Assembly (NCBI RefSeq): GCF_900186975.1 | Contig: NZ_LT906441.1 | Span: 744,001 to 808,000 of the forward strand | Length of the DNA: 64,000 bases | Source: Cutibacterium granulosum | Lineage (GTDB): Bacteria > Actinomycetota > Actinomycetes > Propionibacteriales > Propionibacteriaceae | Direction of reading: 5' to 3' | In this document: positions 47,021 to 64,000 of the stretch, piece by piece | How positions within the stretch are numbered: the first letter of the stretch is position 1 | Layout of the letters: every line of letters begins with the position of its first letter | Notes under the pieces: generated by a model | What the model was told of the DNA's origin: nothing | What the model saw: the letters and a program-made list of their open reading frames with translations, nothing else | The model's database searches: none | Position numbers and translations under genes: made by a program

Positions 47021-47463
47021 GGCTCTCCTGGTGTCGACGCGACGGGACTCAACCCAGCTTACGGCGTGGGACGGGGAGGGGCGAAGGACGAGGAACGAGG
47101 CCACTGTTCTGTGGGTGCCCATGTTCTGGGGGTGCCCATGTTCTGAGGGTGCCCATCGGCTGTTCTCACAGCATCGGCTCGTCGCGCAGGGTGCTGGGCG
47201 TGTCGTCCTCGAGACCGGTACCCTCGACTGCGCCCACCCAGCCGGATGACGGCTCCTCGGCTTTGTCCTTCCCCGATTGGGGCCAGCTTCTGTCTCTGCC
47301 CCGTACGGGTTGCTGACGAGACACCCGCCCCACCCCTGTGCCTCGTGGCTGAGGTGGGGCAAGGTCTGTTTTCGGTGAGGCCTGCCGTTGTGGACAGACC
47401 CCAACCGGGGCAATGGGAATCGGCACTTACCACCGAGTTCGCCGCGTAGGGAGTCTCAACGCC
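47021..47463. other. Intergenic gap with three-unit tandem repeat
   Basis: No gene is supported here. The gap holds the 17-bp tandem repeat at 47106-47156 and runs into the CoA-transferase terminator. Minus-strand open frames through it (to 47413 and 47481) show no domain and change reading across the repeats. Confidence 0.5.
47106..47156. repeat. Near-perfect 17-bp tandem repeat, three units
   Basis: gttctgNgggtgcccat is repeated three times head to tail; the only difference is one base (T, G, A at the seventh position). Such arrays are prone to copy-number change. Confidence 0.9.
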
Positions 47464-51718: not shown

Positions 51719-51936
51719 GATGGCAGTCTCCCAGAACGAGGTGCAGGTGTCGCCTCGTGTTCGTGATGTCGATTCTCGTGCCGTCAATGCAGTCCAATGA
51801 AAGTTCTGGCAGGAAAGCTCCCCCCCGTTTTTGCAGCCTTCTGGCAGGAATGCTCTCGCCCCGCCTCGATCCTCAAGACGACGGTAGAGGAATGGGCCAG
51901 GACCCTTTGCCCTGATGTTCCCGTTCTGTCGAGGCA
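51719..51936. other. Gap with C7 homopolymer (promoter side of the methyltransferase)
   Basis: No gene seen. Seven consecutive C (51820-51826) followed by gttttt lie ~100 bp upstream of the methyltransferase start, where length change could affect transcription. Confidence 0.4.
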
Positions 51937-52124
51937 TTCCCCGTCCTGTGTCAGAACCTTCCCTGCCCCGTACGAAACTTCTCGATTCTGTGTGGGCCTT
52001 CCCGGCCCGGTGCGGACTTTCTCAATCTCGGGGCGAACCTTCCTGACCTCGTGCGAGCCTTCTCCCCTCCACCCCTCACAAGCACTCCTGATTCCGTGCG
52101 AACCTCCCCCTATTCCGGGCGGCC
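51937..52124. repeat. Degenerate 20-bp tandem array, about nine units
   Basis: Units begin at 51937, 51959, 51979, 51999, 52019, 52040, 52060, 52085 and 52105, nearly all 20 bp. Consensus by eye: TTCYC, five variable bases, then GTGCGRRCC. Each unit differs at several positions. The period is not a multiple of three, so it is not a coding repeat. Confidence 0.8.
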
Positions 52125-52146: not shown

Positions 52147-52508
52147 CGTGACATTTTTGTCACGTCGAGCCCATGAGGGTCATGGGAACGTCAGGATGCT
52201 CGAGGTACTGACATTTTTGTCAGGGCATCTTCCTTCGGGTCACACGAGTGCCGGGACTCTTCGGGGGATGACAATTTTTGTCACGTCGGGCGTGGACTGG
52301 GCAGGTGGAAGTCCGGGCGGAGCAGACATGGCGGGGGCTCGGGTGGAGCTGGCGTGGCCGGGTCCGGGTGGAGTAGGTGTGGTCGAGACCAGGCGTGATT
52401 CAGGGCAGGGGAGCGTCGCTCGTTCGCGGTGATGACATTTTTGTCATGAGACCGATGGTGCCGTCACGTGAGTGCGATGGGTTCGTGGCAAGTGACATTT
52501 TTGTGCAC
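52147..52508. repeat. Phased palindrome array: five copies of TGACA-TTTT-TGTCA
   Basis: tgacatttttgtca occurs at 52149, 52209 and 52433, with a one-base-longer copy at 52269 and a variant right arm at 52493. The gaps between copies are 46, 46, 149 and 46 bp, so starts are 60 bp apart except once. Flanking bases co-vary to extend the stem (G-C, C-G, A-T). The spacers are unrelated. The array ends ~90 bp before the PPDK regulatory gene. Confidence 0.9.
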
Positions 52509-52595: not shown

Positions 52596-53480
52596 ATGGC
52601 AGAGTCGCCCTTGGAAATTCACGTCATCGCCGATTCGACGGGTGAGACCGCCGTCCGTCTGGCACGGGCCGCCCGCAGCCAGTTCGAAGGAGTCCACTGG
52701 CACATAGTGCGTCACCCGATGATCGGCACCGTTGCGGAGATGATGGCCGCTCTGGAGGCCGTCATGGCGGCCCACGAGGCAGGTCAGTGGGTGTGCGTGG
52801 TCCACACCCTGGTGCTGCCGGACATGCGCCGGATGGTCGCCGACGCCTGCGAGGAGATGGGGATACGTGAGGTCAACCTCATGGGTCCGATGCTCGCGGC
52901 GATGGAGGAAGCCTCCGGTCTGGACGCCGATGCCGTTCCGCGTCGTCCGGTGGGGGTGGAGGCCGACTACTTCACCCGTATCTCGGCGATGGAGTTCGCG
53001 GTGCGCAACGACGACGGTGCCATTCCCGACCGTCTCACCGAGGCAGACATCTGCCTGGTGGGGGTGAGCCGCTCGGGCAAGACGCCGCTGTCGATCTATC
53101 TGGGCTATCTCGGCTACAAGACCGTCAACGTACCGTTGGTACCCGGTATCGCTCCGCCTGCCGAGCTGGCCGCCGTGGATCGGTGGCGCATCGTTGGCCT
53201 GACGATCGATGCCCAGAAGTTGTTGGAGATTCGAGGTCGACGTGTGCGCGGGCTTGGTGGGTACGGCAATGAGGACGGATACGCAGATCTCGCCGCCATC
53301 TATGACGAGCTGGACGAGGTGGGCAAGATCCAGCGTCGACTGGGCTGTCCGATCATCGACACGACTGGCCTGGCCCTCGAGGAGTCTGCCACCAAGGTCA
53401 TCGATATTGTCGATCAGCGGGCGAAGACGGCTGGCACTCGGCTACGCAAGCCGGCGGGATCGTACCGGACGATTCCGTGA
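52596..53480 (+). CDS. Pyruvate, phosphate dikinase regulatory protein (kinase/pyrophosphorylase, DUF299)
   Basis: A 294-aa bifunctional regulator that inactivates PPDK (or PEP synthase) by ADP-dependent phosphorylation of an active-site Thr and reactivates it by phosphorolysis. It begins with IHVIADSTGETAVRLARA, has the P-loop GVSRSGKTPLS at 156-166, and the conserved YLGYLGYKTVNVPLVPG. The C-terminal IDTTGLALEESATKVI is also typical. The likely target, PPDK, is encoded 9 kb downstream with the GGMTSHAA motif intact. The upstream open frame to 52377 crosses the palindrome array and is not part of the protein. Confidence 0.93.
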   Translation: MAESPLEIHVIADSTGETAVRLARAARSQFEGVHWHIVRHPMIGTVAEMMAALEAVMAAHEAGQWVCVVHTLVLPDMRRMVADACEEMGIREVNLMGPMLAAMEEASGLDADAVPRRPVGVEADYFTRISAMEFAVRNDDGAIPDRLTEADICLVGVSRSGKTPLSIYLGYLGYKTVNVPLVPGIAPPAELAAVDRWRIVGLTIDAQKLLEIRGRRVRGLGGYGNEDGYADLAAIYDELDEVGKIQRRLGCPIIDTTGLALEESATKVIDIVDQRAKTAGTRLRKPAGSYRTIP

Positions 53481-61482: not shown

Positions 61483-64000
61483 ATGACTGACCGTTACGTG
61501 TACGACCTGTCCGAGGGCAGTGCCGAGATGAAGCCCCTGCTGGGTGGCAAGGGAGCTGGCGTTGCCGAGATGATGCGGGTGGGGGTTCCCGTACCAGACG
61601 GTTTCACCATCACCACCCAGGCTTGCGTGGAGACCATGAATCGCAAGGGTGAGTGGCCCGACGGTCTTGACGAGCAGGCCTGGGCCGGCCTGCAGCGTCT
61701 GGAGGAGCGTACCGGTCGTAAACTGGGTGATCCCGGCAAGCCGCTGCTGGTCTCGGTGCGTTCCGGCGCCATCATCTCCATGCCGGGCATGATGGACACC
61801 ATCCTCAACCTCGGCATCTCCGACGAGACGGTCCCTGCGATTGCCCGTGAGTCGGGCAACGAACGGTTCGCCTGGGACTGCTACCGCCGATTCATCCAGA
61901 TGTACGGCGAGGTCGTCGAGGGAATCGACGCCCACGTCTACGAGGACGCCCTCACCGCCCTCAAGGAGAGCAAGGGTGTGGAGTCTGACACCGACCTGTC
62001 CGCCGATGATCTCAAGGGCCTGGTCGACACCTTCAAGAAGCTCTCCAACGAACAACTCGGCGGCAATTGGACCACCGATCCGCGTGAGCAGCTCATGCGC
62101 GCCGTCGACGCCGTCTTCCGTTCCTGGCTCAACCCGCGCGCCTTCGTCTACCGCAAGGCCAACAAGATCTCCGACGATCTCGGCACCGCCGTCAACGTCA
62201 TGCAGATGGTCTTCGGCAACCGTGGTGACGACTCCGCCACCGGCGTGTGCTTCACCCGCAATCCCGCCACCGGAGCCAACGAGCTCTACGGTGAGTTCCT
62301 GCAGAACGCCCAGGGTGAGGACGTCGTCGCCGGCATCCGTACCCCCAAGCCGCTGGCGCAGATGCAGGAGATCCTTCCGGACGCCTACGAACAGCTCACC
62401 GCCACCATGAAGAAGATGGAGGCGCACTACCGCGACATGCAGGACATGGAGTTCACCGTCGAGAACGGCAAGCTCTACCTGCTGCAGACCCGCAACGGCA
62501 AGCGCACCGCCGCTGCCGCCCTCAAGGTGGCCCGCGACCTCGTAGACGAGGGGGTCATCTCCAAGGAGGAAGCCCTCATGCGCATCGAGCCCGGCCAGCT
62601 CGACCAGCTGCTGCACGAGGCCATCGACCCCGACCACAGCGAACAGCCGGTTGCCGAAGGTCTGCCGGCCTCCCCGGGTGCTGCCGTCGGTGAGGCCGTC
62701 TTCGACGCCGACATCGCTGCCGAGCGGGGCGCAGCCGGTGATCGCGTCGTCCTCATCCGTTTCGAGACGACTCCCGACGACATCCACGGCGTGCTGCAGT
62801 CCCAGGGCGTACTCACCGCCCACGGCGGCATGACCTCGCACGCAGCCGTCGTCGCCCGTGGCATGGGCAAACCGTGCGTCGCCGGGGCACGCGGCATCAA
62901 GATCGACTACGAGGCCAGGACCCTCACGGTTGGCGACACCGTCATCGAGGAGGGCGACCCCATCACCTTGGACGGCTCCACCGGCGAGGTGTTCGCTGCT
63001 GCCCTGCCGCTCATCCCCCCGCAGATCAACGCGGACTTCCAGGAGGTGCTCTCCTGGGCCGACGAGACCCGACGCCTGGGTGTGTGGGCCAATGCCGACA
63101 ACGCCACCGACGCCGCCAAGGCACGTGAACTTGGCGCCGAGGGAATCGGTCTGTGCCGCACCGAGCACATGTTCTTCGGCGCGGACCGACTACCCGCCAT
63201 GCACGAGATGATCACCGCCGAGACTCCCGAGGAACGCAAGACGGCCGTCGACAAGATCCTGCCGATGCAGCAGGAGGACTTCGAGGGCGTCTTCACGGCG
63301 ATGAAGGGGCTGCCGGTCACCGTGCGGCTGCTCGACCCACCGCTGCACGAGTTCCTGCCGAGCCTCGTCGAGCAGTCCCTCAAGGTGCAGGAGATGGAAC
63401 TCACCTCGGCCGATCCGGTGCACACCGACAAGGAACGTCGCCTGCTGGCCCAGGTGAAGAAACTGCACGAGCAGAACCCGATGCTCGGCACCCGTGGTGT
63501 GCGCCTGGCCATGCTCTACCCGGAGATTCCCGACATGCAGGCCCGTGCCATCATCCGCGCCGCCCTGGCCGTCCTGGAACGTGAGGGCGAGACGGTGGAC
63601 CTGCACATCATGATTCCGCTGGTCTTCACCCCGGTGGAGCTTGCCACTCAGCGCAAGATCGTCGAGGACTGCCTGGCCGAGGAGTTCGATCGCGCCGGAC
63701 GTCGGATCGACGTCGAGATCGGCACCATGATCGAGCTGCCGCGTGCTGCCCTCACCGCCGACCGGATCGCCGAGGTGGCCGACTTCTTCAGCTTCGGCAC
63801 CAACGACCTCACCCAGACCACCTTGGGCATCAGCCGCGACGATGCCGAGAACGGCTTCCTCACCGAGTACCTGCGCACCAAGGTGCTCAAGCAGAACCCG
63901 TTCGCCTCGATCGACGTGGACGGTGTGGGTCAGCTGGTTTCCGGGGCCGTCGAGAAGGGACGAGCCGCCAAGTCGAGTCTGGGGCTCGGTGTGTGCGGTG
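61483..64000 (+). CDS. ppdK: Pyruvate, phosphate dikinase (3' end outside window)
   Basis: Interconverts pyruvate + ATP + Pi with PEP + AMP + PPi; in propionibacteria it works in both glycolytic and gluconeogenic directions. 839 of about 880 residues are present. The N-terminal ATP-grasp domain starts YDLSEGSAEMKPLLGGKGAG and contains SVRSGAIISMPGMMDTILNLG. The swivelling domain has GGMTSHAAVVARGMGKPCV with catalytic His453 and the regulatory Thr451. The PEP/pyruvate barrel includes GIGLCRTEHMFF, GTRGVRLAMLYPEI and FFSFGTNDLTQTTLG. AAGGAGAT precedes the ATG. Its Thr451 is the expected target of the regulatory protein encoded at 52596-53480. Confidence 0.97.
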   Translation, partial: MTDRYVYDLSEGSAEMKPLLGGKGAGVAEMMRVGVPVPDGFTITTQACVETMNRKGEWPDGLDEQAWAGLQRLEERTGRKLGDPGKPLLVSVRSGAIISMPGMMDTILNLGISDETVPAIARESGNERFAWDCYRRFIQMYGEVVEGIDAHVYEDALTALKESKGVESDTDLSADDLKGLVDTFKKLSNEQLGGNWTTDPREQLMRAVDAVFRSWLNPRAFVYRKANKISDDLGTAVNVMQMVFGNRGDDSATGVCFTRNPATGANELYGEFLQNAQGEDVVAGIRTPKPLAQMQEILPDAYEQLTATMKKMEAHYRDMQDMEFTVENGKLYLLQTRNGKRTAAAALKVARDLVDEGVISKEEALMRIEPGQLDQLLHEAIDPDHSEQPVAEGLPASPGAAVGEAVFDADIAAERGAAGDRVVLIRFETTPDDIHGVLQSQGVLTAHGGMTSHAAVVARGMGKPCVAGARGIKIDYEARTLTVGDTVIEEGDPITLDGSTGEVFAAALPLIPPQINADFQEVLSWADETRRLGVWANADNATDAAKARELGAEGIGLCRTEHMFFGADRLPAMHEMITAETPEERKTAVDKILPMQQEDFEGVFTAMKGLPVTVRLLDPPLHEFLPSLVEQSLKVQEMELTSADPVHTDKERRLLAQVKKLHEQNPMLGTRGVRLAMLYPEIPDMQARAIIRAALAVLEREGETVDLHIMIPLVFTPVELATQRKIVEDCLAEEFDRAGRRIDVEIGTMIELPRAALTADRIAEVADFFSFGTNDLTQTTLGISRDDAENGFLTEYLRTKVLKQNPFASIDVDGVGQLVSGAVEKGRAAKSSLGLGVCG

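Follow-up and report, generated by a model that had tools for sequence, protein, structure and literature searches.

A 30-bp-phased tripartite palindromic element concentrated left of the replication origin in Cutibacterium granulosum and its relatives

Introduction

Why should a row of evenly spaced palindromes stand in front of the gene for a kinase-PPPase of the PPDK regulator family? The question is raised by a 64,000-nucleotide stretch of the Cutibacterium granulosum chromosome (NZ_LT906441.1, positions 744,001 to 808,000), called the window here. A first-pass annotation of it had noted five palindromes of the form TGACA-N4/5-TGTCA ahead of the regulator gene. Short palindromes that recur along a chromosome may serve as operators, as repeats or as marks of a chromosome region. 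RacA, which acts in sporulation in Bacillus subtilis and is recruited by DivIVA, binds ram, a single GC-rich inverted repeat of the TGAC-N6-GTCA type. The ram sites lie mainly within 250 kb left of oriC (PMC4949633). In Escherichia coli, the 23 copies of matS, GTGAC(A/G)N(T/C)GTCAC, were found in silico through their restriction to one region (PMC3116907), and the NBS and SBS sites of Noc and SlmA are palindromes present in dozens of copies with a non-uniform chromosomal distribution (PMC4726725). Only a small number of sequence elements are known to define domains of the bacterial chromosome, and those confined to one flank of the origin are rarer still.

Results

The array consists of four exact palindromes and a fifth, damaged one (Table 1), so that the count of five given in the first-pass annotation holds for four sites; the last retains one intact half, has an altered right arm and does not fit TGACA-N4/5-TGTCA. 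Four exact motifs in the window compare with 0.16 expected, and none of 100 shuffles reached four. The reported geometry agrees exactly with the coordinates: the sites start 60, 60, 164 and 60 bp apart, and three spacers measure exactly 46 bp. Other properties first ascribed to the array fared less well. Compensated change of the outer base pair, taken as a sign of selection on the dyad, is not supported, since that position pairs in 7 of 14 perfect-core sites against 4.6 by permutation (p = 0.11) and is unpaired in the third site of the window. Nor are the spacers fully unrelated in sequence, for a second palindrome, B, is conserved at their midpoint. Finally, with 10.5 bp to the turn, 60 bp makes up about 5.7 turns of the helix, not a whole number, which leaves the argument from helical phase weak.

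Table 1. Coordinates of the array components and of the neighbouring gene in the window
Feature	Position	Strand	Evidence
A palindrome 1, TGACATTTTTGTCA	52149..52162	+	exact match; profile R1 match 52148-52218, 29.6 bits, outside training set
B at the centre of unit 1 (degenerate), GTCATGGGAACGTC	52179..52192	+	weak match; fixed 30 bp from both A sites
A palindrome 2, TGACATTTTTGTCA	52209..52222	+	exact match
B palindrome at the centre of unit 2, GTCACACGAGTGCC	52239..52252	+	site averaging; profile R1; clear B
A palindrome 3, TGACAATTTTTGTCA	52269..52283	+	exact match; centre one base longer
Degenerate 25/26-bp tandem repeat in the 164-bp gap	52311..52382	+	TRF period 26, 2.8 copies; find_repeats
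A palindrome 4, TGACATTTTTGTCA	52433..52446	+	exact match; opens the best complete element of the window, 52433-52507
Midpoint palindrome B of element 52433-52507, GTCACGTGAGTGCG	52463..52476	+	profile R1; clear B
A' site 5, TGACATTTTTGTGCA	52493..52507	+	degenerate right arm
Kinase-PPPase (PPDK regulator family), neighbour gene	52596..53480	+	PF03618, E = 1.2e-79

The array is one instance of a larger family. Many copies of its palindrome occur on the 2.175-Mb chromosome, and around 52 sites in this genome partner hits were counted 27 times at 60-61 bp and about once at most other distances (z of about 14 at lag 60), with a secondary peak at 120 bp. When the sites were averaged, B (CAC-N4-GTG) fell exactly midway between A sites. 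The unit is thus an element of about 77 bp, A-30-B-30-A', in which A reads yTGAC-n-ATTTTyG-TCA, B reads gCAC-n4-GTGc and the third block is A'. Its form in relatives is TGACnATTTTyGTCAGC, about 30 bp, GGCACnnCAGTGC, about 30 bp and TGACAnTTTTCGCCA. The 60-bp preference is genome-wide and is found in the sister species as well; the random scatter that would have spoken against a phased array is not what the relatives show, where the spacing is strongly preferred. In seven element groups compared between species, with flanking genes that match in most groups, not all, identity was 87% in A, 71% in B and 75% in A', against 57% and 52% in the two spacers. These comparisons show that A, B and A' are preferentially conserved at fixed 30-bp intervals.

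Copies across genomes were sought with a sequence-only profile, R1, built from 23 training copies, nine of them from relatives and two from the window (the element at 52433-52507, which scores 43.7 bits, belonged to this set). R1 matched 82 sites in the C. granulosum genome and 17-31 in each of seven congeners, although its E-values are rough and the training copies from the own genome and the nine from relatives inflate their own scores. In the ninth member of the genus, the divergent G053, there was one marginal match, essentially none. In a search of 67 genomes, R1 matched nothing in those from outside the genus, 63 other members of the family. That the exact 12-mer TGACATTTTTGT is missing from the other members of the genus had first suggested a species-specific motif; the relaxed pattern TGACN{0,1}ATTTTNGTCA has copies in eight of the nine, and its reversed control had zero copies. 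The papers in the library that we searched include no description of the element. We take it to be previously unrecognised; eight of the nine species of the genus carry it, with about 17 to 82 copies each.

Such numbers invite the explanation that the elements are an expanded family of intergenic repeats, REP/MITE-like or satellite-like with tandem 60-bp units, which has no selected function and was amplified in this species. The strong expansion here would suit it, as would the head-to-tail arrays elsewhere in the genome, such as that at 331901-332277, which keeps a 60/61-bp step and carries a locus-specific variant, TGACRATTTTCGTCA. So would the long intergenic DNA of the own genome, whose coding fraction, from simple ORF calls, is 0.75 against 0.81-0.87 in relatives. 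The 82 copies and this long intergenic DNA indicate that the family can expand. A repeat without function nevertheless accounts poorly for the conservation of A, B and A' alone, with spacers that differ in sequence and keep their length, for the syntenic copies found in several species and for a one-sided location throughout the genus (see below); in addition, neither ends nor a transposase were identified, the ends having been looked for without a systematic survey. We regard this explanation as quite unlikely.

With dnaA located in all nine genomes, and element positions in the drafts only partly known, R1 matches (E up to 1e-3) lay left of dnaA in 13 of 13, 9 of 9 and 10 of 10 cases in the three relatives with usable maps (G083, G035 and G094, respectively) and in 42 of 45 cases in C. 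granulosum, mostly 15-200 kb from the gene. The three right-side matches of the own genome all belong to the array of the window. Twenty control stretches of 20 kb from the own genome (400 kb) contained zero R1 matches. Exceptions were found in G013, where one match (C9:8115) and a lone A site (C9:41310) lie on the opposite side of dnaA. Two exact copies of parS, TGTTTCACGTGAAACA, at 487092 and 488585, lie 7-9 kb left of dnaA, and the elements are therefore on the parS side. The PPDK regulator gene is left of dnaA and on the minus strand in the mappable relatives, and right of it and on the plus strand here, a swap of side and strand that an inversion around the origin, moving the region across, would produce. 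The neighbourhood of the array thus appears to have been carried over the origin by inversion.

A tie to the PPDK regulator did not survive comparison. The regulator protein is 94-96% identical in seven relatives and 83% identical in G053; in the relatives the intergenic region at this gene is short, with at most a half-site match, and little or no element is found at the same gene pair. The array accordingly has no specific tie to the regulator, and it does not represent an operator conserved at this gene. The absence from relatives of the same gene order that the first-pass annotation had named as grounds for doubt is thus real at the regulator site, and only there: elsewhere these genomes do carry members of the family.

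The elements could still be operators of one transcription regulator whose regulon happens to cluster left of the origin. Palindromic half-sites at fixed spacing are typical of operators, the array of the window stops about 90 bp ahead of a start codon, and some flanking genes have roles in iron, metal or sugar metabolism (an ABC-3 transporter, a siderophore-interacting protein, ferritin, a CsoR-like repressor and the PTS). The flanks as a whole are functionally mixed and also include citrate synthase, adenosine deaminase, fumarase, DnaB, pseudouridine synthase and others. The elements are almost all intergenic and their gene-orientation classes match background, which speaks against operators; some conserved placements are convergent, where no promoter would be expected, as between a conserved 105-aa ORF and the Fe-S protein gene that faces it and between a pyridine-nucleotide oxidoreductase gene and a pseudouridine synthase gene. 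A regulon would also have to be reconciled with the essentially zero copies in the remaining chromosome, and on balance we hold it to be unlikely, though deserving of serious weight. One match lies inside a gene, the NAD synthase ORF, and is shared by three species; the region is well conserved over its whole length, so that a coincidence of coding may account for the match.

It is highly improbable that the elements act as transcribed RNA, be it a chain of small hairpins, a terminator or a sponge for an RNA-binding protein. Short hairpins can be drawn for A and for B, and at the copy at 150231 the palindrome is extended by 11 bp, A being placed in a much larger palindrome, GTGTCTGGCGACATTTTTGTCACCAGACAC (L028, chromosome 150223-150252). 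In five species (L186, L191, L194, L197 and L198), the arms that flank B in the PTS EIIA-rhodanese intergenic region look complementary by eye and have changed on either side, perhaps the mark of a superimposed terminator. Across the family, however, flank complementarity did not exceed permutation (p = 0.63 for energy, 0.13 for stem length), RNAalifold returned a consensus structure of 0 pairs, and a hairpin with an extended, compensated stem was abandoned on these grounds. In addition, the T-tract of A is found on either strand, the centre lengths and arms vary without compensation, and an Rfam search produced no known RNA family near the gathering score.

Other candidate identities were considered as well. 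A coding repeat is disfavoured by N6/N7 centre variants and by 58/61-bp steps, which shift the frame. The true parS was found separately and is unrelated in sequence. A CRISPR array is made less likely by the conserved B at the spacer midpoints and by the spread of copies through many separate intergenic stretches. Related arrays in other phyla were sought among 84,980 species genomes as two TGACA-N4-TGTCA copies 31-61 bp apart. The matches listed include many such pairs, with different centres and no preference for 46 bp, and only two of the matches listed carry the T4/A4 core in both copies, with spacers of 31-32 bp.

Discussion

What, then, are these elements for? The reading that we favour, tentatively and at somewhat less than even confidence, is that a putative DNA-binding protein docks on them and so marks or organises the domain left of the origin. 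A dimer of such a lineage-specific protein would sit on each palindrome, three dimers per element could form a nucleoprotein unit, and some 20-80 units might mark the origin-left region for compaction, for anchoring at the pole or membrane or for being tracked during the cell cycle, in a manner resembling the action of RacA on ram or of MatP on matS. The earlier proposal of a protein that oligomerises along the DNA is in part retained: a protein that binds double-stranded DNA on phased palindromes remains the best reading of the pattern, and the argument from helical phase carries little weight. We know of no sporulation in this lineage. The elements may, as a more speculative though plausible extension, form part of a second system of the centromere-like or macrodomain kind, peculiar to this lineage, in an actinobacterium that does not sporulate, based on a 30-bp-phased tripartite element, on one origin flank beside parS, and on a putative undescribed protein.

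Several observations count against docking sites. Several of the elements are close enough to metal, iron and sugar genes to fall in the range of their promoters, a difference as large as 82 against 17-31 copies between species would be uncommon in a segregation element that is essential, and one congener, G053, does without the element. The match and the lone A site across dnaA in G013 also weigh against it. In addition, the one-sidedness could mirror the gene content of the region and not the organisation of the chromosome.

Comparison with the known systems is instructive on both sides. Like ram, the elements are numerous short sites concentrated left of the origin; ram is a single GC-rich palindrome, whereas A has a T-rich centre (ATTTT), and B and the 60-bp unit are additional. 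Like matS, they are domain-restricted palindromes, and the outer GTGAC/GTCAC of matS resembles A. However, matS (GTGACRNYGTCAC) is a single 13-bp site with 3 bp between TGAC and GTCA and belongs to the terminus macrodomain, while the elements described here are origin-proximal, with 6-7 bp, T-rich, between these arms and with three palindromes each. The sites of Noc and SlmA are also palindromic, unevenly distributed and counted in dozens, but they are spread widely, depleted at the terminus and different in sequence, in contrast to a location on one origin flank. With parS, the target of ParB, the elements share an origin-proximal place on the same side of dnaA, and they are unrelated to the canonical sequence, which is present separately in its two copies. 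Since defining features of sequence or position are missing in each case, the element was not filed under ram, matS or parS; it may work like RacA/ram or MatP/matS, by analogy, and membership in either is not claimed.

If the element is the docking site of a domain-organising protein, a 77-bp probe could find that protein, and the positioning of the origin in this genus would become directly testable. Even if it marks a regulon, it would point to a regulator not yet described, in a genus whose members appear to include bacteria common on human skin.

Some further observations were made on the way. The intergenic region ahead of the regulator gene is about 870 bp long here; where relatives have the same genes on both sides, it measures about 60-250 bp. 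The regulator is separated from ppdK (about 61534-62538) by some 8 kb in which a lipase gene and a secreted-type gene are found; in several relatives ppdK appears to come directly after the regulator. Three degenerate C/T-rich direct repeats of about 40 bp, GAACCTTCCCTGCCCCGTACGAAACTTCTC-like, occupy 51954-52064, immediately ahead of the array, and a run of seven C at 51820-51826, upstream of a methyltransferase gene, is a possible phase-variable tract. In Lactococcus nasutitermitis, pairs of TGACA-N4-TGTCA with TGACAGAACTGTCA-like centres are unusually many, on several contigs of one genome (L068, L091, L097, L098, L102, L112, L126, L131 and L141). Finally, a 17-bp tandem repeat, TGTTCTGAGGGTGCCCA, in 3.1 copies lies at 47105-47156 near the 3' end of an acetyl-CoA hydrolase gene, a neighbourhood which in relatives contains an A-B-A' element (L188:1988-2064).
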